NCBI GenBank assembly: GCA_023379805.1 | Contig: JAMCPI010000012.1 | Span: forward strand, 283,777 to 347,776 | Length of the DNA: 64,000 nucleotides | Direction: 5' to 3' | Origin: Nitrososphaerota archaeon | GTDB taxonomy: Archaea; Thermoproteota; Nitrososphaeria; Nitrososphaerales; JACPRH01 | Shown here: positions 13,133-64,000 of the stretch, piece after piece | How positions within the stretch are numbered: position 1 is the first letter of the stretch | How the letters are laid out: each line of letters begins with the position of its first letter | Position numbers and translations under genes: made by a program | The notes under the pieces: model-generated | What the model was told of the DNA's origin: nothing | Seen by the model: the letters and a program-made list of their open reading frames with translations, nothing else | Databases searched by the model: none

Positions 13133-14431
13133 GTGAAATTGATGACGGGCAAGTACTCGCATCTGTTTAAGGATCCCGACATTAAGCGTTGGTATGACAA
13201 CATGTGTAGAGGCTCCAAAGTAACCGCAGACGTCTCCATCAGAAGACTAGGAGCTGTATGCACTTACTGCAATATTACGCCAAAGGAGCTGGTGGAGCGC
13301 GGCAGAAGTGATGGCCAGTGGCTATACAACTTTGCCATGGATCTCGTCACCAAGCTTGAGGCGGAGGGGAAGGCCGGCAGCTACATCGAATCAAACCTCA
13401 AGGTAGTTAGATCCTGGCTGAACCATAACGGCGTCGAGTTCCGCAGGAAGATCAAGATACGCGGAGCGGATGACACGCCCACATTGAGAGGCAACCGCAC
13501 ATTAAACAACGACCAGCTCAGAACGCTGTTCTTGGACTCGCCTCCTCAGACTCGCTGCATCTGCGTGCTAATCGAGCAGGCAGGACTTAGGCCCGAAGTG
13601 GTCGGCAGCTACGAGGCAACTGACGGACTGAGAATTGGTGATCTGCCTGAGATGAAGATTGAAGGAGAGAACATCACATTTCTCAACATCCCAACCTTGG
13701 TGGTAGTGAGGCGTGAACTGAGCAAGGCTGGTCATCAATACTTCACCTTCCTAGCGAGAGAAGGATGCGAGTACTTGCAGGAGTATCTACTGCAGCGAAT
13801 AAGGTCAGGTGAGACACTGGATTCTTCAACACCTCTCATCGTACCCAAGGTATCAAAGAAACAGTTTCTCCGCACCGCCATGGCGACAAGATTAGTGAGA
13901 AAGAGGCTCCGAGAGTGCTGGATTCGGGCTCGGCCCTACGACTTAAGGCACACCTTTGCCACACAGCTAATGCTTGCAGAGGGCAAAGGTTTGATTCTCA
14001 GAGATTACAGAACCTTCTTCATGGGACACAAGGGCGACATCGAGAACCGCTATACTACAAACAAGCAGAGCCTACCTGAAAAAGTGGTTGAGGATATGCG
14101 TGCAAGCTTCGCTAGATCCCAAGAGTTCCTGCAGAGCGAAGGCTCATTCCAGGAGACACAGCGATACAAGGATGAGGCTTACACAAGGGTGCTTATTCTC
14201 GCAGGCTTCACAGAGAAAGAGATCAACAATAACAGGATGCTTGAGCTGAGCGAGGAGCAGATTATGCTCAAGGCGAGAGATAAAATCATCTCATCTATCT
14301 TCGGAGACGCTAAAGAGCAGAAATTAGTGCCGCTAGACGCATTGGAAAAATATCTAGTAAAGGGCTGGAGATGCGACCACATCATCGAATCAAGGGGACA
14401 AGCCGTGATAAGCATCCCAACAAGATACTAA
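13133..14431 (+). CDS. Tyrosine recombinase (integrase-like), not next to a tRNA
   Basis: 432 residues from a GTG, or 429 from the ATG at 13142. The catalytic domain shows LIEQAGLRPEVV (first Arg), RPYDLRHTFATQL (usual H-x-x-R with the His replaced by Tyr), MGHKGD (His) and ENRYTT (Tyr nucleophile). The N-terminal 110 residues resemble a SAM-like core-binding domain; the last 90 residues are a helical extension. No tRNA gene or attachment repeat is seen next to it, and remnants of several other elements lie within 5 kb. It is probably a left-over or domesticated integrase, and differs clearly from the integrase at 57490. Confidence 0.8.
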   Translation: MKLMTGKYSHLFKDPDIKRWYDNMCRGSKVTADVSIRRLGAVCTYCNITPKELVERGRSDGQWLYNFAMDLVTKLEAEGKAGSYIESNLKVVRSWLNHNGVEFRRKIKIRGADDTPTLRGNRTLNNDQLRTLFLDSPPQTRCICVLIEQAGLRPEVVGSYEATDGLRIGDLPEMKIEGENITFLNIPTLVVVRRELSKAGHQYFTFLAREGCEYLQEYLLQRIRSGETLDSSTPLIVPKVSKKQFLRTAMATRLVRKRLRECWIRARPYDLRHTFATQLMLAEGKGLILRDYRTFFMGHKGDIENRYTTNKQSLPEKVVEDMRASFARSQEFLQSEGSFQETQRYKDEAYTRVLILAGFTEKEINNNRMLELSEEQIMLKARDKIISSIFGDAKEQKLVPLDALEKYLVKGWRCDHIIESRGQAVISIPTRY

Positions 14432-43026: not shown

Positions 43027-43737
43027 CTATTCTGCTTCTAGACGGCAGACATCTCTCAAGGCGCTTGTGTAGCCCTCAAACTCGCGCAGAAAACCGCTGA
43101 GCCTAGTTACAGGCACGACCGGTACTCCGTCGATTAACTGAACATTTTCTTCGTGAAGCGTAGCTATAACCGGGTATAGGCTTAACAACCGCGGGATTCC
43201 AAGTTCATTGGTATCTACGAGCCGCTTGGCTCTGCCTGTCTGCAGTTCCGCTACCCTCCTCATTGATGAGGCTCCTGTGGTTCGCTTCCAATGTTTGCAG
43301 TCAATAACTAAGCCGAGACCATTCCTATAGGCAACAACATCAATCTCTGCCCTAGGTTTCTTCAGACGAATAGTCCTCTTCACGGTGTATCCGTCAGCCG
43401 CCAATATTTCGGCCACGAAATCCTCAAAATCTCGCCACCCGATGTGCTGCGATGCTTCATCGACGCTACAGCCCAGCCTCACAGCCAAGACGGCGCCTGC
43501 AACCTTGTCTCCCCTGCTGAATTCGACTGAGCAATCTCCGAGTCTTCCGACACCATTTTCAATCATCTGGTTCAACGTATCCTGTACAACGAGTTCTCCG
43601 AGGCCGCTCTTCTCAGCAAGTTCCTCCAAAGTGTGCCGTCCTTCGTCGAGGAACTGGGTGAGGCGTAGGAGTGTCCTAGGATTCATGCTGGCATCACATA
43701 CGTAAACGAGGCGTTTGCAGAGATGTAAATCATGCAC
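43027..43737 (-). CDS. Restriction-endonuclease-like (Mrr/HJR fold) protein
   Basis: 236 residues. An N-terminal helix-turn-helix-like region (RLTQFLDEGRHTLEELAEKS) is followed at about 110-170 by a PD-(D/E)xK nuclease core: GWRDFEDFVAEILAADGY, AEIDVVAYRNG, LVIDCKHWK. Such proteins cut branched or foreign DNA or serve in repair. Divergent from the membrane-anchored helical protein at 43776, with only 38 bases between starts. Confidence 0.72.
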   Translation of the reverse strand: MHDLHLCKRLVYVCDASMNPRTLLRLTQFLDEGRHTLEELAEKSGLGELVVQDTLNQMIENGVGRLGDCSVEFSRGDKVAGAVLAVRLGCSVDEASQHIGWRDFEDFVAEILAADGYTVKRTIRLKKPRAEIDVVAYRNGLGLVIDCKHWKRTTGASSMRRVAELQTGRAKRLVDTNELGIPRLLSLYPVIATLHEENVQLIDGVPVVPVTRLSGFLREFEGYTSALRDVCRLEAE

Positions 43738-43775: not shown

Positions 43776-44315
43776 ATGCAGCAGCAGATCCCGTCGGGCA
43801 TCGTTGATACGGATGTGTTCCTAGCATGGGTCATATTGACGGTGGCGACCGTGATACTGCTCTCGCTGGTGTATCGGGCTGTAGCCAGAAGCGCTCCGAA
43901 ACCCGGGGACTTCACGCCTGTTCCACCCTCACCAGTACCGCTTCAGAAGCCGCGTCTATACATCTCAGCCGATGTAGATGAAGCATATTCACTTCTAAAC
44001 CGGTCAGTAGACGACATTAACGACGGCTTTTTTAACTCAGCAGCTGAGAAAGCGTACCAAGCCGCAACTAACGTTCTCTCGCAGCTCCTACGTTACTTCT
44101 CGGTAGAGGCTGAGGGAATGAGCATCATGCAGATGTTGAAAACGCTTCACGATAAAGGCGCGTTGCTTCGACCCCACGCGGGACTAGAGCGCGTAGACGA
44201 AATCCTAGAAAAGAAGCATCAGGGCAAGAGCCTCAGCCGCGAAGAAACCCACTGGGTAGTTCACATAGCTCACTTCCTCATCGAAACATCAAAAGAAGTA
44301 CCAGTCAAAGACTAA
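43776..44315 (+). CDS. Membrane-anchored helical (HEPN-like) protein
   Basis: 179 residues. N-terminal membrane segment (FLAWVILTVATVILLSLVYR), a Pro-rich linker, and a C-terminal helical domain of about 110 residues (VDEAYSLLNRSVDDINDGFF ... AAEKAYQAATNVLSQLLR) that resembles HEPN/TPR-like bundles. The R-x4-6-H RNase motif of active HEPN proteins is not evident. Shares its promoter gap with the nuclease gene. Confidence 0.5.
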   Translation: MQQQIPSGIVDTDVFLAWVILTVATVILLSLVYRAVARSAPKPGDFTPVPPSPVPLQKPRLYISADVDEAYSLLNRSVDDINDGFFNSAAEKAYQAATNVLSQLLRYFSVEAEGMSIMQMLKTLHDKGALLRPHAGLERVDEILEKKHQGKSLSREETHWVVHIAHFLIETSKEVPVKD

Positions 44316-44977: not shown

Positions 44978-45187
44978 TTTCTTTACATCTGTAGTTTGAT
45001 GGATTGGTCATGAGGCGCCCACTACAAAAGACACCGCGTGTGAATGAGCAAGTAACGCCAAGTACAAACGGTTACAAGAAATTATTCGATTAAGGATGGC
45101 TGAATGAGATGCCACAATACATTATATATTGAAGGGTACCAGACTATCTGAGCCTCGAGGAAAAGAGCAGGAGGGTATCAGTTCAGT

Positions 45188-46549
45188 ATGGCAAAGAGCA
45201 CCGGGAAAGATCGGATTGATGTTGCTGGTTTAGGTGCGATTGCTAAGAATCAGTTAGCACAGCGCGGTGTCGTAACCTTCGAGGATTTGGCGAGAACCGA
45301 TCCTTTCAACTATGGTCTGCGTTTTCTGGGTGACAAGCTTGAGGGTTGGGTGAACTTTGCGCGGCAGGTCTTAGCTGATGAGGTGATCAGAGAGATTCAT
45401 GTGGGGGACGCAATCACGGCTAGGTGTGCCAAAACGTATGATGTTGAGTTAACTCTGCAGGCTGTGAAGGCGCGGCTCGGTGTTTACGAATATTATGTTG
45501 AGGTGTCTAGGAGGGTGCTGCCGGATCTCTATGAGTTCACCTTCACGATTAATCAGCAACACCGGCAGTACGCGTTAGGCTCCTGGCTGGAGTATAAGCA
45601 GACCGCTCGGATGCTGGATGAAGGTCTTCACCAAACCGGTGAGAAAGAGGTTGCGGTTCCCCAGAAGGAGGTCAAGGAGATTCCCTACCCTGAGCTTCTG
45701 TCACTCTTAGCACCTGAGGTTCTTGGTATTGGTGATGTTCCATTGATTAAGGAGGTGCTTCTCCATCTTCTCTTCGCAGACAGGTTGAATGTGCTGGTTA
45801 TCGCAGCCCCGTCGGTTGGTGCGAAGACCGTTTTGAGAAACGCGTTGGAGCGATGCGCTCCTGCGCTCTACAACCACTACTGTGGAAGCAGGGATAGCCA
45901 TGTTGACTTTGCTGAAGCGTTGTCCGGGATCGGCGAAGGGGTCTTAGCGTTAGAGGGGCTTGAATCTATGACCGGTGATGAGAAAGATGTCCTTTACGAT
46001 ATCCTCTCATCCCAGCAGGTGAAGATCCGGCCCCAAGGCGACACCTACGAATATGAAGCCAAGATTAACATCTATGCGCAAGCAAACCCAACAAGCCCAG
46101 CAACAGCTGGCCGCGGAAAACGCGTGAAACCCTCGCTGTCTGTAGACGAGAAGTTCCTCGAGTACTGTCACTGCGTAATCATGGCTAAACCGTACTCCGC
46201 TGCCGAGTTTGAAGACCTGACCCGATTCATCCCAAACGCCAAGAAACCCGGTGAAGAAGATGTGAAGAAGCTACGAAATTATCTGCAGCGAGCCCGTTCA
46301 ATCCAACTGATACATGACGGGCCACCTGAAGAAGTGTATGAGTTCCTCAAAGCAGTCTATCGGCAGCGAGAGAAACTCCCAATCCCAATCACAGCCGAGA
46401 TGGAGAAAGGCATCATCGAGCTCGCAAAGGCTCACAGCCGCATCAGACTCAGTTCACGCGTCAACCGAGATGACTTCCTCTATGCGTTAAGGCTGATGGA
46501 AGCATGTCTGGAGCGAGTAGGCTTCCAGAGCGGCGGAGCAAAGAAGTAG
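45188..46549 (+). CDS. MCM-like AAA+ paralogue with degenerate catalytic motifs
   Basis: 453 residues. The N-terminus has a helix-hairpin-helix-like start (VAGLGAIAKNQLAQRG). From about 167 it follows the MCM helicase pattern: LLSLLAPEVLGIGDVPLIKE, Walker A position APSVGAKT (207-214), Walker B position GVLALEGLESM (normally D-E, here E-G), sensor-1 YAQANP, and a C-terminal ITAEMEKGIIELAKAHSRIR. The arginine-finger SRFD is replaced by EKFLEYCH. It is therefore probably an ATPase-dead paralogue, perhaps regulatory. Too short for a replicative MCM, which is usually 600-700 residues. A TATATATTG box lies upstream. Confidence 0.72.
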   Translation: MAKSTGKDRIDVAGLGAIAKNQLAQRGVVTFEDLARTDPFNYGLRFLGDKLEGWVNFARQVLADEVIREIHVGDAITARCAKTYDVELTLQAVKARLGVYEYYVEVSRRVLPDLYEFTFTINQQHRQYALGSWLEYKQTARMLDEGLHQTGEKEVAVPQKEVKEIPYPELLSLLAPEVLGIGDVPLIKEVLLHLLFADRLNVLVIAAPSVGAKTVLRNALERCAPALYNHYCGSRDSHVDFAEALSGIGEGVLALEGLESMTGDEKDVLYDILSSQQVKIRPQGDTYEYEAKINIYAQANPTSPATAGRGKRVKPSLSVDEKFLEYCHCVIMAKPYSAAEFEDLTRFIPNAKKPGEEDVKKLRNYLQRARSIQLIHDGPPEEVYEFLKAVYRQREKLPIPITAEMEKGIIELAKAHSRIRLSSRVNRDDFLYALRLMEACLERVGFQSGGAKK

Positions 46550-57369: not shown

Positions 57370-57447
57370 GGGCCTGTGGCTCAGCCAGGTCAGAGCGGCT
57401 GGCTCTTAACCAGCACGCCGTGGGTTCAAATCCCACCAGGCCCGCCA
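57370..57447 (+). tRNA. tRNA-Lys (anticodon CTT), CCA encoded
   Basis: Acceptor GGGCCTG/CAGGCCC, D-arm GCTC...GAGC, anticodon stem GCTGG/CCAGC with loop CTCTTAA (CTT), T-arm GTGGG TTCAAAT CCCAC, discriminator G at 57444, CCA at 57445-57447. No intron. A TTAAATATA box at about 57335 gives its promoter. An integrase gene starts 43 bases after the 3' end, so this tRNA is the attachment site of the following element. Confidence 0.97.
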
Positions 57448-57489
57448 CTATATCGGTGCATAAATAGGATTTCTTATATAACGCAGGAT

Positions 57490-58722
57490 ATGCAGAGCGT
57501 CACGGTCGATCCATTGGTCGAATTCTTCGACGCTATCAAGTCGCCTCTCACTAAGGACCGTTACGAGAAGAGGTTTGATCTCTTCCTGAAAGGAATCAGC
57601 ATGGAAGGATCTACGCTTCAGGAGCGAGCTAAGAACTTTGCAGATAAGGCTAGAGACACACAGTGGGTAACAGTAACTATCAACAACTACATGCGGTATC
57701 AGAAGCAGCGAGCTGAGAAAGGCGAGATCTCAGAGTCCACGGTGCCGAACTACTACAAGCCGGTTAAGCTCTTCCTGGAGATGAACGATATCACCTTGAA
57801 CTGGAAGAAGATCTCTAAGCGCATACCTCAAGGACGCTCGTACGCTCTGGATAGGACACCGACACCGGAAGAGATCAAGACGCTCATCGCATACCCTGAC
57901 CGCCGGATCAAAGCGGTCGTCCTCACCATGCTAAGCTCAGGCTTCAGACTCGGAGCCTGGGACTATCTCAAATGGGGTCACATTGAGCCGATTGAGAAGG
58001 ACGGCCCTTTACTGGCTGCCAAGGTAAAGGTGTACGCCGGTGAGGCCGAGGAGTACTTCACATTCATCACTCCAGAAGCATACAGCGCCCTGAAAGAGTG
58101 GATGGACTTCCGGGAGCAGCACGGCGAGAAGATCACGAAGAACTCACCGTTAATGAGGGACCTATGGGACGCAACTTCTAAGGCGAAGCGAGGCTTAGCT
58201 TCAGCTCCTCAACCATTGAAGAGCACCGGCATCAAACGACTACTAGAACGGGCACTATGGGCCCAGGGACTCTGGCAGCCTTTGGAAGAAGGAAAGAAGC
58301 GCCACGAATTCAGCGAAGCTCACTCCTTAAGAAAACTGTTCAAGTCAATCTGCGAGCGCAGAATGAAGAGTCTCCACGTGGAGCTGCTAATGGGCCACTC
58401 ACTCGGGCTCGGCAACAACTACTATCGGCCAAGCGAACAGGAGATACTTGATGAGTACCTTAAGGCGGTGCCTGAGCTAACAATCCTAGAGACAATATCA
58501 CTCGACATTGAGAATGTAAAAACGGATCTAACCAAGAAGATTGAGGAGCTAGAAGGCAAACTCCATGAACGGGACACCTTCATCAAGGAGCAGGCTGAAG
58601 CAATGATCAAGATGGATAATTCGTTCAAGGCTAAGCTCAAGGAGCACAGCGATCTAATGCAGCAGGTCCTAAACAAGCTCGAAAAAGAGGAGGAGTCCTC
58701 GGCCAATCAGTCAGATGTATGA
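57490..58722 (+). CDS. int: Tyrosine integrase of the tRNA-Lys element
   Basis: 410 residues from the ATG at 57490; the frame is open back into the tRNA, but those residues are just translated tRNA. Catalytic domain: LSSGFRLGAWDYL (Arg), AHSLRKLFKSI (H-x-x-R), LMGHSLGLGNNYYRPSE (His and Tyr). The N-terminal SAM-like arm-binding half (TKDRYEKRFDLFLKGI) and a C-terminal coiled coil (TKKIEELEGKLHERD) complete it. Integrates the element at the tRNA 3' end; uninterrupted by the attachment site, so unlike SSV-type split integrases. Confidence 0.9.
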   Translation: MQSVTVDPLVEFFDAIKSPLTKDRYEKRFDLFLKGISMEGSTLQERAKNFADKARDTQWVTVTINNYMRYQKQRAEKGEISESTVPNYYKPVKLFLEMNDITLNWKKISKRIPQGRSYALDRTPTPEEIKTLIAYPDRRIKAVVLTMLSSGFRLGAWDYLKWGHIEPIEKDGPLLAAKVKVYAGEAEEYFTFITPEAYSALKEWMDFREQHGEKITKNSPLMRDLWDATSKAKRGLASAPQPLKSTGIKRLLERALWAQGLWQPLEEGKKRHEFSEAHSLRKLFKSICERRMKSLHVELLMGHSLGLGNNYYRPSEQEILDEYLKAVPELTILETISLDIENVKTDLTKKIEELEGKLHERDTFIKEQAEAMIKMDNSFKAKLKEHSDLMQQVLNKLEKEEESSANQSDV

Positions 58723-58755
58723 ATTAAGTAAGATAGAGTTATAAATCAATGCACA

Positions 58756-59016
58756 ATGAAATATAGCAAAGAGAATATGAGCCGAAAACTTACAAAAGAA
58801 CAAGATGCCTTCATAATAGGTGGGATTCTTGCGGTTCTAGGTCTTTATAGCATTATCTCTAGTCATGACCTGCAATCGGTGCAATCAGGATTCTTAATAT
58901 TGGGTATAGGCATCGTGTTTATGGCTTCAACATCTAAAGAGCGTAGTAAGCAGGTTTTCGATTTCTTCCTCTCAATATTTAAGGGCTTATGGAAATGGCT
59001 CTCACATTCAGATTAA
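58756..59016 (+). CDS. Small two-span membrane protein
   Basis: 86 residues. Two membrane segments (AFIIGGILAVLGLYSIIS and GFLILGIGIVFMAST), a basic patch, and an aromatic C-terminal helix (FFLSIFKGLWKWLSHSD). No family recognised. Follows the integrase in the same direction. Confidence 0.6.
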   Translation: MKYSKENMSRKLTKEQDAFIIGGILAVLGLYSIISSHDLQSVQSGFLILGIGIVFMASTSKERSKQVFDFFLSIFKGLWKWLSHSD

Positions 59017-59345
59017 TCGGTCCGTTATGTCGCATACCTGTAATCCTAGGAGTGCTCTACGCACCGTTCTGGGTAGCCATGCCAAGCTGAGGAGAAGAAG
59101 GGCGATTAACCCCATAATCCTCTGAGCGTCGTTTCCGGCCATAGTACTGATGAAAAGACATCCTCCTGATAAGGTTTCGAGTGCAATTACTAGATGAGAG
59201 AGGACTCCTAGGAAAGAAAAGTTGTGCCTATTATGTCCTAAAAAACATACATAACTATGGACATAATGAAACTACTGTGTCTGAGACGACCTAAGTGAAT
59301 TCGACGGTCTGATTAGGCTCTAATTGAGCACCTGCATGACACCAA
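59017..59345. other. Non-coding gap with a long inverted repeat
   Basis: ATTATGTCC (59230-59238) and GGACATAAT (59259-59267) are perfect 9-bp arms around 20 A/T-rich bases, between two converging genes. The rest of the gap shows nothing clear. Confidence 0.55.
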
Positions 59346-59714
59346 TTAGCTAGCCTTCTGTGCCCTTTCTTCTGAGGCTCCACCCTTTTTACTAGACCGT
59401 TTAGTCTGGGTTTGTGCTTCTATCTTCTTATCGATGGTGTCAAGCTTTTCCCTGAATGTTTCCATATCATGCATGAGTGAATTGATCTTCTCTTCGCTGG
59501 CAGCAACTACTTCTTTAGTTGGCTTCGCAATACATATCAGCTCGACAGATCTATACTCAACAAAACCTGCTATCACTAATGATACTCCAAATATGTACGC
59601 AGCGAAAGCTTCCGATATGGAACGTTCATCTGAGGATATGGTGATGGCTGAAGCAACCATTATAATAGCACCAAAAATGAAAAGAGCATACACTATGAGG
59701 TATTCTCTGCGCAT
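59346..59714 (-). CDS. Membrane protein with coiled coil and basic tail
   Basis: 122 residues: two membrane segments (LIVYALFIFGAIIMVASAIT and AYIFGVSLVIAGFVEYR), then a cytoplasmic coiled coil (EKINSLMHDMETFREKLDTI) and a Lys/Arg/Ser-rich tail (TKRSSKKGGASEERAQKAS). Unrecognised; typical of small viral or plasmid membrane proteins. Confidence 0.6.
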   Translation of the reverse strand: MRREYLIVYALFIFGAIIMVASAITISSDERSISEAFAAYIFGVSLVIAGFVEYRSVELICIAKPTKEVVAASEEKINSLMHDMETFREKLDTIDKKIEAQTQTKRSSKKGGASEERAQKAS

Positions 59715-59802
59715 ATATTTATGCCAAGACAGAGCACTAGATAAGGATTTTTGAGAGACTGTTCGCTTATCGGGTGCATTAATCGCAACAATCGGTCTTT
59801 AT

Positions 59803-60069
59803 CTAAGTGAATTCGGCCATCTCGCCGGGCTTTAACACGATGTTGTACTTCTGCAGCAGAGACGCTGAAAACCGGTTGTAGTTGTCAACGGCCTCGACAG
59901 GTGTATCAATCCGGGTGGCTTGATCCCAGAGTCTCCACAAGAATACCCAATCAGCAGTAGAGACCTTCACCTTGATCTTGGGCTCTAGGCCGTGGATGCC
60001 TATTCCTGTTCCCAGTCTCAGGGTTGGTCGCCCTTGTATTTCGGACTCGGTCTCAGTCTTGGTCTCCAC
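59803..60069 (-). CDS. Small hypothetical protein of the element
   Basis: 88 residues with a Thr/Glu-rich start, a beta stretch (RPTLRLGTGIGIHGLEPKIK) and a helix (ADWVFLWRLWDQATRI). No family recognised. Divergent from the AbrB-like gene across a 154-base A/T-rich promoter region. Confidence 0.55.
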   Translation of the reverse strand: METKTETESEIQGRPTLRLGTGIGIHGLEPKIKVKVSTADWVFLWRLWDQATRIDTPVEAVDNYNRFSASLLQKYNIVLKPGEMAEFT

Positions 60070-60223
60070 GGCCCTTTACTCACTTCACGCACCTGTATGA
60101 ATAGGCGGGGTATTTATCATTTAGTGTATCACATTAGTGAATCTTAATATTATCTCTATTTAGTAATCAAATACGGTTATACAATCGGTGTACCAAACCA
60201 CCGCTAAGGGAGGCAGCAGCAGA

Positions 60224-60466
60224 ATGGCTAGAAACGGCATCGGCACCCTCATAGGTCGGAAGACCGCTACTGGCGGAAGGACATACATGAGAGCATGGAT
60301 CTACGTGCCCACGGAGGTCTTCAGAGACACCAGCTTCCCCTTCGCAGTAGGTGATCCCTGCATGGTCTCGATAGACATCGAGAAGAAAAGGCTCATAGTC
60401 ACCCAGATCTCAGAAGATGAGGCTCAACGCCAGGGATGGGCCAAAAGGCAACGAGTAACCGACTAA
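60224..60466 (+). CDS. AbrB/SpoVT-like small protein
   Basis: 80 residues from the ATG at 60224, which has GGGAGG 10 bases upstream; the GTG at 60188 is less likely. The stretch MRAWIYVPTEVFRDTSFPFA followed by VGDPCMVSIDIEKKRLIV resembles the swapped-hairpin AbrB fold (IP-x2 ... GD-x-V-x-V). It may be a DNA-binding regulator of the element. A strong hairpin follows. Confidence 0.5.
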   Translation: MARNGIGTLIGRKTATGGRTYMRAWIYVPTEVFRDTSFPFAVGDPCMVSIDIEKKRLIVTQISEDEAQRQGWAKRQRVTD

Positions 60467-60549
60467 CTGACTCTAAAGAAAATAGGAACGTCCCCCACCA
60501 AGGTCAACCTACCTGCACCCTTAGATGCTCAGGTGAGGGATCGCACACG

Positions 60550-60581
60550 CCTGTAAGGAACCATAGGTTCTTTACAAACAG
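60550..60581. terminator. Hairpin between two converging element genes
   Basis: GTAAGGAACC-ata-GGTTCTTTAC (60553-60575) with one G-U, extended by CCTGT/ACAGG outside. It lies between the stop at 60466 and the stop at 60606 and can terminate both directions. Confidence 0.55.
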
Positions 60582-60605
60582 GTTACGGAATTGCAGCCTT
60601 GACTT

Positions 60606-60890
60606 TTAAGCCTTCTCTACTCTGCTCTGCCTGATCTTCAGTAGATTCTGCAATCCCTTCGCTCTTTTCCTTCGTGGACCGCTCCAACTGTATCTAACAA
60701 TGCGACCCAGGCTCCAACCCTCAAATTTCTTATTCGTGAGCTTGTGCCATCGGCAGTGGACATACCTCTCGGACCAGCTGATCGGGTTGTTGCAGATCCA
60801 GCATTGATGAGTTTGATATGTTGCAGATGAGTGACACGGGGTTAGCTTCTGCATCCTCAAGAACCCTTTAGCAGGCTCCAGGCTTTTCAA
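60606..60890 (-). CDS. Small zinc-ribbon-like basic protein
   Basis: 94 residues. HQCWICNNPISWSERYVHCR followed by WH forms a CxxC plus C/H pair likely to bind zinc; the C-terminal half is Arg/Lys-rich (SGPRRKRAKGLQNLLKIRQ), consistent with nucleic-acid binding. Its ATG overlaps the previous stop by four bases (ATGA). Last gene of the minus-strand module. Confidence 0.6.
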   Translation of the reverse strand: MKSLEPAKGFLRMQKLTPCHSSATYQTHQCWICNNPISWSERYVHCRWHKLTNKKFEGWSLGRIVRYSWSGPRRKRAKGLQNLLKIRQSRVEKA

Positions 60891-61375
60891 GTTCCCCGAT
60901 ACACAGCTAGCCTGTTGCTATTAACATCGCTGTTGGCGCCTATCAAGACAATGAACCTGCCGGTCTCCTCTATGCCGATGGCAAACTCACTGGTGAACAG
61001 GTCGAAGTTACTCGGGATAGCGATTGTCTGGAGCAGGGCACCGTCCTTGTAGATGAAGAGGTTGAAGTTCTTGTCATCCAGTAAAACGATGTATTTCTTG
61101 TGTACGCTGCTGACCACCCGCTGCCAGCACCGGTTGTCACTTATTCCTGCAAGTGAATAATTCTTGATTACCGTCCCGTCCTTTTTCATGAACCACATCT
61201 GCGGCCTATTATCCTGCCAGGCCATGTTGCAGTCGGCGTCAACCACGACCAGTCCCCGAGGGGTGCTGATTGACCCTACCGCATTATACGTGAAGGTGGT
61301 GTCCAGAACATAACTGGAATAGTCACCCTCGACTACACCAAGCGGAGGAGAATAACTCAATTTATTTCCAACCAC
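60887..61375 (-). CDS. Beta-rich protein, propeller-blade-like
   Basis: 162 residues from a GTG. Repeating blade-like strands: GLVVVDADCNMAWQDN, QMWFMKKDGTVIKNYSL, KYIVLLDDKNFNLFIYKDGA, RFIVLIGANSDVN. No signal peptide. It could be a short propeller or a virion/surface protein. It begins exactly where the GTAG repeat after the upstream stop ends. Confidence 0.55.
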   Translation of the reverse strand: MVGNKLSYSPPLGVVEGDYSSYVLDTTFTYNAVGSISTPRGLVVVDADCNMAWQDNRPQMWFMKKDGTVIKNYSLAGISDNRCWQRVVSSVHKKYIVLLDDKNFNLFIYKDGALLQTIAIPSNFDLFTSEFAIGIEETGRFIVLIGANSDVNSNRLAVYRGT

Positions 61376-61388
61376 CTACCTACCTACC
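61376..61388. repeat. (CTAC)3 across a stop codon in the element
   Basis: On the minus strand TAGGTAGGTAGG: the stop TAG (61386-61384) of the collagen-like gene starts three GTAG-type units that fill the whole 8-base gap to the next GTG start. Confidence 0.8.
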
Positions 61389-62079
61389 GCCAAAACATCC
61401 AGACATTCAGGATGCCAGCGGTTGAGACAGCTTTGTGATGTATGGCTGTAACGTGCAGCGGCGATGTGAGACCTGCATTCGCCTGCAAGGCTGGTGTGGT
61501 TGATGCGATCTGGTTTTCCTCGGTTTCACTGTCAAACTCGACCTGGCATGCCGTACTCGGAGAGACGACGACCTGTTCAGGCAACGTGTTAGCCTCCAGG
61601 CCGAGCCTGCTGTCTAAATCCTTGATGAGTGTCTTCCCCTCAGTCGTGGCGTAGCTTACCGTGATGAATTTGTGATGGCTGTAACCTAGCGTCTGTGATA
61701 GAACATAGAGGACCGGCAGCCTCACATCTAACAGTTGAGCCTGTAAAGGCAGGGTCGACGGAGAAATAACCGGCGGCAAAGGCTTACCCACTCCACCTTC
61801 AGGTGCAGGTGCAGCAGTTGGTGTGGGTGCCGCTCCAGGTGCAGGTGGTGATGGTGCAATGATGCCTAAGCCGATCAATCCTCCTCCTTTACCAGGTCGA
61901 CCACGCCTGCCTTGTTGACCGGGTGTGCCTTCTGGACTGGTGCCGATGATGTTTTGGATCTCTAAATCCGAGACGCCGCTGGCTTTAGCCTGCAGTATGG
62001 CGATTTTGACTAAAATTATTAGGAGCTCGTCGACCCTGGAGAAAAGGTCCCGGACCTGCTGCCTCGGATACTCAGACAT
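61384..62079 (-). CDS. Collagen-like plus beta-domain protein (fibre-like)
   Basis: 231 residues: a helical start (VDELLIILVKIAILQAKASG), five Gly-x-y triplets (GTPGQQGRRGRPGKG), an Ala/Pro linker (PSPPAPGAAPTPTAAPAPEG), then a beta domain of about 130 residues ending LHVTAIHHKAVSTAGILNVW. The sequence order (oligomerisation helix, collagen stalk, beta head) resembles fibre proteins of viruses, but no direct family match is recognised. Confidence 0.6.
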   Translation of the reverse strand: MSEYPRQQVRDLFSRVDELLIILVKIAILQAKASGVSDLEIQNIIGTSPEGTPGQQGRRGRPGKGGGLIGLGIIAPSPPAPGAAPTPTAAPAPEGGVGKPLPPVISPSTLPLQAQLLDVRLPVLYVLSQTLGYSHHKFITVSYATTEGKTLIKDLDSRLGLEANTLPEQVVVSPSTACQVEFDSETEENQIASTTPALQANAGLTSPLHVTAIHHKAVSTAGILNVWMFWR

Positions 62080-62083
62080 CTAA

Positions 62084-62332
62084 TCAGACACCTGACTGTA
62101 CGTTTCTTTTGACCCTGATTCTCAGTGGGCTCTTCGGTGAAGGACTTGGAAAACGTCCCAGCTTCAGGACACCGAACAATGGACCCGCCTTCTCAGGGAT
62201 GGGAAGGAAGGGCGGATCGAAGTATTTGCCGAGCTGCAGCTCAAGCTGGATGCGAGGCTGCTGCTCCTTTCCTCCCATTGGCACCAGGTCAACGATTTTC
62301 TTGCGGTGCTGCCAGTCGATTTGGGTGCTCAT
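62084..62332 (-). CDS. Small hypothetical protein of the element module
   Basis: 82 residues, Pro-rich and basic (QLGKYFDPPFLPIPEKAG, FPSPSPKSPLRIRVKR). No family recognised. Starts directly at the stop of the Gln/Asn-rich gene and is followed 4 bases later by the collagen-like gene. Confidence 0.55.
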   Translation of the reverse strand: MSTQIDWQHRKKIVDLVPMGGKEQQPRIQLELQLGKYFDPPFLPIPEKAGPLFGVLKLGRFPSPSPKSPLRIRVKRNVQSGV

Positions 62333-62725
62333 TTATTCTCGGAACCGCCGATACTGGATTTTTGCGCCGCTCTTCGTGAACCCGACGGGGACGTTGGCGC
62401 TTCTCTGCAGGCCCATTGAGGCTAACGTCTCGTCGTCTAGACTGGCTAGATCTACGTTGTTATTGGCCTGGTTGCCCTGTTGGTAGTTATTTCTGGGAGG
62501 CTGGCCCTGACCACCGAGCTTTATCATCTCAAGCCGGTTTCCTAAACCTGAAGTCCGTTCGGATAGGCGTACTGTGACTTGATCCAACAGAGGCGTCAAC
62601 ACTTGGGCCCGAAGTTTACCCCGGGCGCCCTGTATCTGCGATTGAAGTGCTCCTAACCTCTGGCTAAGGTCGTCTGCCGAAACCTGTTGGTTTTGGCCCT
62701 GATTCTGGTTTTGGTCCTGGCTCAA
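62333..62725 (-). CDS. Gln/Asn-rich small protein
   Basis: 130 residues. Low-complexity start (MSQDQNQNQGQNQQ), a helical centre (LGALQSQIQGARGKLRAQVL), a disordered Asn/Gln segment, and a conserved-looking end (SLDDETLASMGL ... GFTKSGAKIQYRRF). No family recognised; packed head-to-tail with no gap to its neighbours. Confidence 0.55.
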   Translation of the reverse strand: MSQDQNQNQGQNQQVSADDLSQRLGALQSQIQGARGKLRAQVLTPLLDQVTVRLSERTSGLGNRLEMIKLGGQGQPPRNNYQQGNQANNNVDLASLDDETLASMGLQRSANVPVGFTKSGAKIQYRRFRE

Positions 62726-63475
62726 TTACGCAATCAGCCCCTTTCTTTTCAGCTCTTCAGCCATTGCCGACTCTCCCACCTGTTCGATTGTTGCCTTCGT
62801 AGGTGGTGGACTTGAGCCTAGCAAGTATTTGCTTAATGGATTGACCAGATTTTCTCCGATTTTATCCACCCTTTTATCAATACTTCGCAACAATTCGACC
62901 TGAACGTTGTTAGAATATGGTTCTCGGCTATCCAGTTTCTTCGTTAAAAGGTCGATCTGGTCCTGCATCTTCGTTAGCTTCTGGTTCTGGAGCTCAGTCT
63001 TCAACGTGGCGATCTCTTTTTGCGCCTGGTCGAATTTCTCTTCAAGCCTTGAGATAGCTGGATCTGGATCGGCGCTGACTCGCTGAACCCCTTCCTTTAG
63101 GGCCTGAGTTTTTGTCTGTAAGTATTCGCTGTACTCTAATTCTGCGAGGCTTGGCACAGTTTCGGGTAACGGGCTCTTTGCAGGCTCAGGCGGTTGATAC
63201 TTCGTTTTTTCCCGTTCAAGTCTCAAGGCTTTGAGCTCCAGACTCAACCTTGAGATTTGGTCCTGCAAGTAGGACCTCTCAGGGTCGGGGTCTAAACTTG
63301 ATCTAACAGATGGCTGTACAGGCTCAGGCTCAGGTAGCCTCTTCGAGGCGTGGACTCGTAAATGGCCGTTTAAGGATGCCTGCGAGGTGAAGGTTTTGTC
63401 GCAGTCTGAGCAGGCGAATTCTGTCTGATCTTCACTCGTAGGGGGGCCGTCCTCTATCTGTTCTGAGACTGCCAT
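62726..63475 (-). CDS. C2H2 zinc-finger coiled-coil protein
   Basis: 249 residues. A classic C2H2 finger at 22-42 (FACSDCDKTFTSQASLNGHL then RVH; C22, C25, H38, H42), then long coiled coils (LQDQISRLSLELKALRLERE and EEKFDQAQKEIATLKTELQN). C2H2 fingers are frequent in archaeal viruses and plasmids, but fusion to this much coiled coil is unusual. Could recruit the module to DNA. Confidence 0.72.
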   Translation of the reverse strand: MAVSEQIEDGPPTSEDQTEFACSDCDKTFTSQASLNGHLRVHASKRLPEPEPVQPSVRSSLDPDPERSYLQDQISRLSLELKALRLEREKTKYQPPEPAKSPLPETVPSLAELEYSEYLQTKTQALKEGVQRVSADPDPAISRLEEKFDQAQKEIATLKTELQNQKLTKMQDQIDLLTKKLDSREPYSNNVQVELLRSIDKRVDKIGENLVNPLSKYLLGSSPPPTKATIEQVGESAMAEELKRKGLIA

Positions 63476-63476
63476 G

Positions 63477-63743
63477 CTACCTCACTCCAGGTCTCGGCCC
63501 TTCGTAAACAAGCGGCTGACTGGCTACAGCCTCCATTAATCGAACTTCCCAGGCAGCGGCATGGTTGCTTCTCATAATGTCCAGCAGTTGATCAGTGACT
63601 TGGGCTCGACGCTCACGCACCTCAACGAGGCGGTCAAGCAGGGTCTCGAAGAGGCTTCCACGCTTAGAATAAATCCGTGAGCCCTTAGCGGCTCGGAGGA
63701 GGCTCGGAGGCACCTGAACTGCCTCGGAGGGTTTAGCTGACAT
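63477..63743 (-). CDS. Helical protein, first of the minus-strand module
   Basis: About 88 residues from the ATG at 63743; a longer frame to 63809 is possible but begins with extra residues. Helical, with RGSLFETLLDRLVEVRERRA. The stop is 1 base before the C2H2 gene start, so the genes from here to 60606 form one transcript of seven. Confidence 0.55.
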   Translation of the reverse strand: MSAKPSEAVQVPPSLLRAAKGSRIYSKRGSLFETLLDRLVEVRERRAQVTDQLLDIMRSNHAAAWEVRLMEAVASQPLVYEGPRPGVR

Positions 63744-63886
63744 AGTTAGCCGATGGAAACCCTTCGATTTATCCGTTACCCTACGAAATGTAGAAATTGC
63801 ATAGAACAATCGTATATGTTACAGGTGTATGATTGTGGAGCCACAGTTTTATCGCTATTCAGTCAGAATAACTCAGAAAACATGAT

Positions 63887-64000
63887 TTTATATAATACGT
63901 CAGTATTACGTAGGATATGCCTAGACAAATAGGAACCGTGCGGCAGATCATTTGTATCTCAATGCATCCTTTCTGGGTTAAAGAGTTAGATAAGCAACGT
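63887..64000 (+). CDS. Partial gene at the window edge (RHH-like start) with TATA promoter
   Basis: ATG at 63917 opens a frame MPRQIGTVRQIICISMHPFW that continues past the window. TTTATATAAT (63887-63895) lies about 25 bases upstream, so leaderless. The beginning resembles ribbon-helix-helix regulators only loosely. Divergent from the seven-gene module across about 170 bases. Confidence 0.45.

Follow-up and report, generated by a model that had tools for sequence, protein, structure and literature searches.

Replication in archaea normally relies on one MCM, and extra copies are often helicases of mobile elements. The locus described here raises the question of what a further, strongly altered MCM-like protein is and what it may do in its host. 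The window, by which we mean the whole stretch of 64,000 nucleotides that was analysed, comes from an archaeal genome of 2.34 Mb, in which it belongs to contig C12. It contains an MCM-like open reading frame of 453 codons on the plus strand (45188-46549) whose boundaries are exact. The original prediction described its product as an MCM paralogue with eroded ATPase motifs. The gene is laid out as follows, with positions referring to the window.

45188-46549, plus strand: degenerate MCM paralogue (open reading frame, MCM homology, 92% identical orthologue, dN/dS about 0.08)
45122-45130, plus strand: TATA box TTATATATT, about 66 nt 5' of the ATG; ACATTATATATTGAAGGGTACC is identical in both species
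45188-45637, plus strand: N-terminal domain, aa 1-150, in place of the MCM N-terminal tier; no relative found outside the genus
45218-45304, plus strand: weak helix-hairpin-helix-like stretch, aa 11-39 (9.2 bits with the HhH model)
45638-45682, plus strand: fast-evolving linker, aa 151-165 (5 of 15 residues differ between the orthologues)
45683-46192, plus strand: MCM AAA+ core, aa 166-335, catalytically degenerate (hhalign, Foldseek)
45803-45829, plus strand: Walker A equivalent AAPSVGAKT (alignment A2, hhalign)
45884-45934, plus strand: site of the helix-2-insert deletion, about 14 columns (alignment A2)
45953-45958, plus strand: Walker B D-E changed to E256-G257, A-G in the orthologue (alignments A1 and A2)
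46013-46063, plus strand: pre-sensor-1 beta-hairpin, conserved Lys changed to Pro282 (alignment A2)
46085-46087, plus strand: sensor 1 Asn300, kept (invariant in 40 sequences)
46163-46165, plus strand: arginine-finger position, Tyr326 (alignment A2)
46268-46507, plus strand: MCM AAA+ lid, aa 361-440 (PF17855, E 2e-8, above the cut-off)
46397-46399, plus strand: sensor 2 Arg changed to Glu404 (alignment A2)

Descent of the protein from MCM is confirmed at the level of sequence because the lid exceeds its Pfam cut-off, the PDB matches are all MCMs and hhalign reaches 97%. The lid domain (MCM_lid, PF17855) scored 35.0 bits against a cut-off of 27.4. The MCM P-loop domain PF00493 stayed below threshold (15 bits, cut-off 23.3), and the NCBIfam MCM model NF040949 was not reached (35, cut-off 940). 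Searches of the PDB with phmmer returned MCMs exclusively (best E 1e-9), and the matches in NCBIfam and PHROGs were of MCM type only. Against a Nitrososphaeria MCM profile made from MCMs of the order, hhalign aligned aa 166-448 with a probability of 96.8-97.0%. The aligned part opens with the linker helix (YKRLIESVAPAIHG / YPELLSLLAPEVLG) and runs through the whole lid; no control, neither the reversed query nor any of 30 shuffles, exceeded 4.4%. The AAA+ core alone (aa 166-335) reached 85% (E 6e-6), and aa 1-165 showed no MCM signal (0.3%). An AlphaFold model that used only the two orthologues as alignment had a pLDDT of 33; with MCM AAA+ rows added the core folded (mostly 65-96) and the N-terminal domain remained without confidence. 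The MCM-like fold of this model is not independent proof since MCM rows had been supplied, and for the same reason the best Foldseek matches, which were all MCM, are supporting only. A weak Mg_chelatase match over the same stretch (E 0.06) would fit a protein of another AAA+ family such as Mg-chelatase, YifB or MoxR, but the lid, the PDB and the profile results all point to MCM. The profile searches yielded no other AAA+ family with intact catalytic residues, and these residues are not intact under either assignment. We consider such an affiliation extremely improbable. Lid, PDB matches, hhalign and the motif alignment described below together lend the original prediction good support.

The motifs were compared in an alignment of 40 sequences (A2). 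In Walker A, GDPGTAKS of MCM is changed to AAPSVGAKT; its glycines have disappeared or moved, and the loop has gained one residue. The P-loop keeps only K213-T214, its end reading A-K-T with the preceding alanine, and does not match the pattern GDPG[TA]AK[ST]. Walker B, IDEFDK in MCM, reads LEGLES in the paralogue and LAGLDA in the orthologue, the arginine finger [ST]RFD reads EYCH, and sensor 2 is changed from TPRQLE to TAEMEK. Sensor 1 (ANP) is retained with its invariant asparagine. The loss of D-E in Walker B, the missing SRFD finger, the replaced sensor 2 arginine and the kept ANP had all been called beforehand and hold in the alignment, as does the call that the N-terminal part differs, since aa 1-165 carry no MCM similarity. 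Beyond this list we found the Walker A change, the deletion of the helix-2-insert, the loss of the conserved lysine in a pre-sensor-1 hairpin of unchanged length, and the absence of the C-terminal winged helix, the paralogue stopping at about position 599 of the 682 positions of MCM. This lysine contacts DNA in MCM. Of the key elements for hydrolysis and translocation, only sensor 1 and the Lys-Thr of the P-loop are left. The N-terminal tier of MCM (helical bundle, Zn, OB), of which hhalign found no trace, helps the rings to form.

Compared with canonical archaeal MCM (the copy of the same genome, PfMCM and SsoMCM), the paralogue is collinear over aa 166-448 and shares the sensor 1 asparagine, the hairpin length and the lid. 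However, it lacks Walker B D-E, the arginine finger, the sensor 2 arginine and the helix-2-insert as well as the N-terminal Zn/OB tier and the winged helix, and it carries another N-terminal domain. We are confident that the protein is to be read as a vertically inherited, catalytically dead derivative of MCM, which apparently neither hydrolyses ATP nor unwinds DNA. For the N-terminal domain, neither a Pfam match nor a significant PDB match was obtained. Its aa 11-39 are perhaps HhH-like, which is a weak lead rather than a result. With an HhH model built from HhH domains of these genomes the stretch scored 9.2 bits, against a maximum of 7.9 for the scored shuffles and 5.0 for the next peptide of the window; Pfam did not detect an HhH there. 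When the region was searched in 400 genomes of the order, one of them gave a weak match to a Y-family polymerase, in its HhH region (E 0.007), as expected by chance, and the other matches were weak.

The gene is evidently under purifying selection and maintained, and not a pseudogene, because its frame is intact in two species, dN/dS is about 0.08, the promoter is conserved and the locus is syntenic. The comparison rests on the two genomes of the genus. In the sister species (G001) the orthologue is syntenic, of the same length and 92% identical, with dN 0.044 and dS 0.56; the neighbouring DUF99 gene gave much the same values (dN 0.045, dS 0.43). The identical TATA box 66 nt upstream represents a conserved promoter of the gene's own. 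Sixteen of the 36 differences fall within the 86 residues of aa 250-335 (Fisher p 2e-4), a segment that reaches from Walker B as far as the arginine finger and in which 16 nonsynonymous stand against 17 synonymous codon changes; aa 166-249 show 2 nonsynonymous and 30 synonymous changes. Because the residue changes cluster in aa 250-335, the hydrolysis site has been freed specifically from constraint, with the remainder kept.

An intact canonical MCM of 682 aa was found in the same genome on contig C14, preceded by a 189-aa gene that we read from its sequence as GINS, and the sister species likewise has an intact MCM. The paralogue itself is carried by both genomes of the genus and by no other among 400 genomes of the order, 398 of the phylum, GTDB contigs, IMG/VR, phages and plasmids; the other matches were ordinary MCMs, lid-only or chance. 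It was also not found in three further genomes of the family, an absence weakened by their incompleteness (61-88% complete). Within the genomes searched, its distribution is thus limited to two species in a single genus. In one genome (G263) an open frame of 447 aa matched aa 167-235 (E 0.008), but this looked like chance on inspection and was rejected. Second lid matches were few among 300 genomes of the phylum, and the four second MCM copies with real lids whose sequences were read have 620-700 aa and keep Walker B. In two genomes of the same order a second MCM, about 680-700 aa long, has diverged very far, one in G101 (L074) with GNPGTAKS and DELDK and one in G024 (L073) with NPGRAKT and DEVDK; both are probably helicases of mobile elements. 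The tree branch of the paralogue has about 10 changes per site. Sisterhood with the MCM of its own genome gave an AU p of 0.013, which mildly disfavours a recent duplication of that gene. An origin with the MCMs of the order was not rejected (AU p 0.17), on a branch too long to place.

The surroundings are chromosomal and syntenic. The paralogue is preceded by genes for a corrinoid protein, an Mrr-like nuclease, a HEPN-like membrane protein and Endo_dU/DUF99 and followed by UPF0259 and a lactate-racemase-like gene; by sequence reading, heme A/O genes also appear to belong to the syntenic neighbours. The DUF99 gene and the nuclease/HEPN-like pair had been correctly named in the original prediction, Endo_dU/DUF99 and the nuclease exceeding the Pfam cut-offs and the HEPN-like protein staying below. 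The nuclease (Mrr_cat with an HTH-like part, 43027-43737, minus strand) is divergent from the HEPN-like protein (43776-44315), which has one N-terminal hydrophobic stretch. The nuclease resembles the corresponding parts of candidate defence systems (PDC-S02, CARF-PDDEXK), yet stands alone. In the sister species an insertion of 4.1 kb (L034; contig C39, 8484-12598, equivalent to 45115-45127 of the window) sits at the TATA box of the paralogue; its genes include one for an IS-like transposase and a Nudix-like one. About 12 bp (AATACATTATAT / AACACATTATAT) flank the insertion on both sides, and the gene retains a full TATA box. The insertion separates the paralogue from the DUF99 and nuclease genes. 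The suggested role in defence was not borne out: the paralogue had no match in the PADLOC defence library, the gene is served by a conserved TATA box of its own, and purifying selection persists while the insertion splits off the DUF99 and nuclease genes. The two-species comparison showed no conserved operon or partner gene beside it. An operon or defence island was rejected, there being neither a defence-library match nor a conserved operon.

Inactive MCM relatives have been described before. One archaeal example is M. kandleri MCM2 (PDB 3F8T), in which deletions have arisen naturally and Walker A is degenerate (PMC2933578). It has degenerate ATPase motifs and internal deletions in common with the paralogue (PMC2933578), but keeps subdomains A, B and C (PMC4619765), which are replaced in the paralogue. 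Sequence similarity between the two is marginal and confined to the lid (E 0.18), so they are probably independent cases. In animals, MEI-218 of Drosophila and MCMDC2 of mammals are related to MCM but lack Walker motifs, and were proposed to act with active MCM partners (PMC5070785, PMC6553819). Like them, the paralogue has an MCM-related AAA+ domain in which Walker A and B are not conserved (PMC6553819). However, they are eukaryotic and meiotic and have unrelated N-termini, and the likeness claims no orthology. Inactivated RecJ homologues of the archaeal replisome are dead enzymes thought to be kept as structural parts of replication (PMC3307487); they differ in fold and are conserved across whole lineages, whereas the paralogue is found in one genus.

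Our best guess for the function of the paralogue is an accessory factor at forks or repair sites that would bind DNA or a partner and work like MEI-218/MCMDC2. In full, we tentatively propose, at a confidence somewhat short of probable, that the dead AAA+ part would serve as a rigid scaffold without ATP hydrolysis or unwinding. The protein could bind DNA, using its HhH-like N-terminus and its core without the insert, dock on an MCM subunit through the retained lid, or both. The ring of the canonical MCM might thereby be modulated, or forked and branched DNA be shielded in replication restart or repair, a role like the one suggested for MEI-218/MCMDC2 and their active MCM partners in animals. 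Regulation of the replicative helicase or a role in repair, both of which had been suggested, would fit as an inference. In M. thermautotrophicus MCM, loss of the helix-2-insert abolished unwinding and shifted duplex affinity from >1 uM to about 8 nM, roughly 100-fold tighter (PMC4619765). Because deletion of the insert raises duplex affinity in this way, an insert-less core may plausibly act as a DNA clamp. The boldest form of the idea, in which the motor is switched off and the helix-2-insert lost so as to yield a tight ATP-independent clamp on duplex or fork DNA that regulates the canonical MCM as an independently evolved counterpart of MEI-218/MCMDC2, seems unlikely. Against the accessory proposal stand the lack of a conserved partner gene beside the paralogue, the weak HhH reading, the loss of the DNA-contacting hairpin lysine, the restriction of the comparison to two genomes, and the structure model, which gives the N-terminal domain no confidence. 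Whether the protein joins an MCM ring is uncertain because the ring-supporting N-terminal tier is missing.

Other explanations have to be weighed against this accessory role. The protein could still bind ATP without hydrolysing it, and act as a nucleotide-dependent switch or, as a poison subunit, cap or break the rings of the canonical MCM. K213, T214 and N300 are retained, and constraint is strongest in the Walker A region (2 nonsynonymous and 30 synonymous codon changes), although this constraint may be structural only. With the P-loop glycines lost or shifted in a loop one residue longer, and the Mg-coordinating Walker B aspartate, the trans-acting finger and sensor 2 all gone, we think this rather unlikely. 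Alternatively, the MCM fold could have been recruited to a task that has nothing to do with MCM or replication, for instance structural DNA or RNA binding, with its ring interfaces unused. The loss of tier, winged helix, insert and interface residues, the branch of about 10 changes per site and the new N-terminal domain would all agree with this. In MCM, sensor 2 of the lid acts across subunits. The lid is the best-kept part of the paralogue, which speaks against a job away from MCM, and we give this reading a similarly low, though real, chance.

That the gene is a pseudogene, or what is left of a decaying MCM from a mobile element, appears very improbable. Extra MCMs are often carried by mobile elements (PMC6563490), and a recombinase-like gene lies beside tRNA-Lys 11 kb away. 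However, the frame is unbroken in two species with dN/dS of about 0.08, a conserved promoter and chromosomal synteny. Viral contigs, phages and plasmids gave only ordinary MCMs or lid-only matches, and the other second MCMs found in the phylum, at 620-700 aa, have largely intact motifs. As to possible mobile elements in the window, tRNA-Lys (57370-57447) is overlapped by the recombinase-like frame (57376-58722), which was recognised by eye and has no Pfam match. Uncharacterised genes come next, among them one for a C2H2 zinc-finger protein (62726-63475), and 57370-64000 looks like an integrated mobile element. A second integrase-like gene lies at 13133-14431, with PF00589 just below the cut-off.

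Inactive archaeal MCMs are already known, M. kandleri MCM2 being an example (PMC2933578). New is the combination of a lost N-terminal tier, a new N-terminal domain and a natural lack of the insert within one Thaumarchaeota-type genus. The paralogue offers a small, natural insert-less MCM core for studying the behaviour that has been published as 'engine in neutral' for mutants of the helix-2-insert. An ATPase-dead MCM under selection with a new N-terminus would mean that archaea can put the MCM fold to non-enzymatic use, the step that is presumed in the evolution of MEI-218/MCMDC2.
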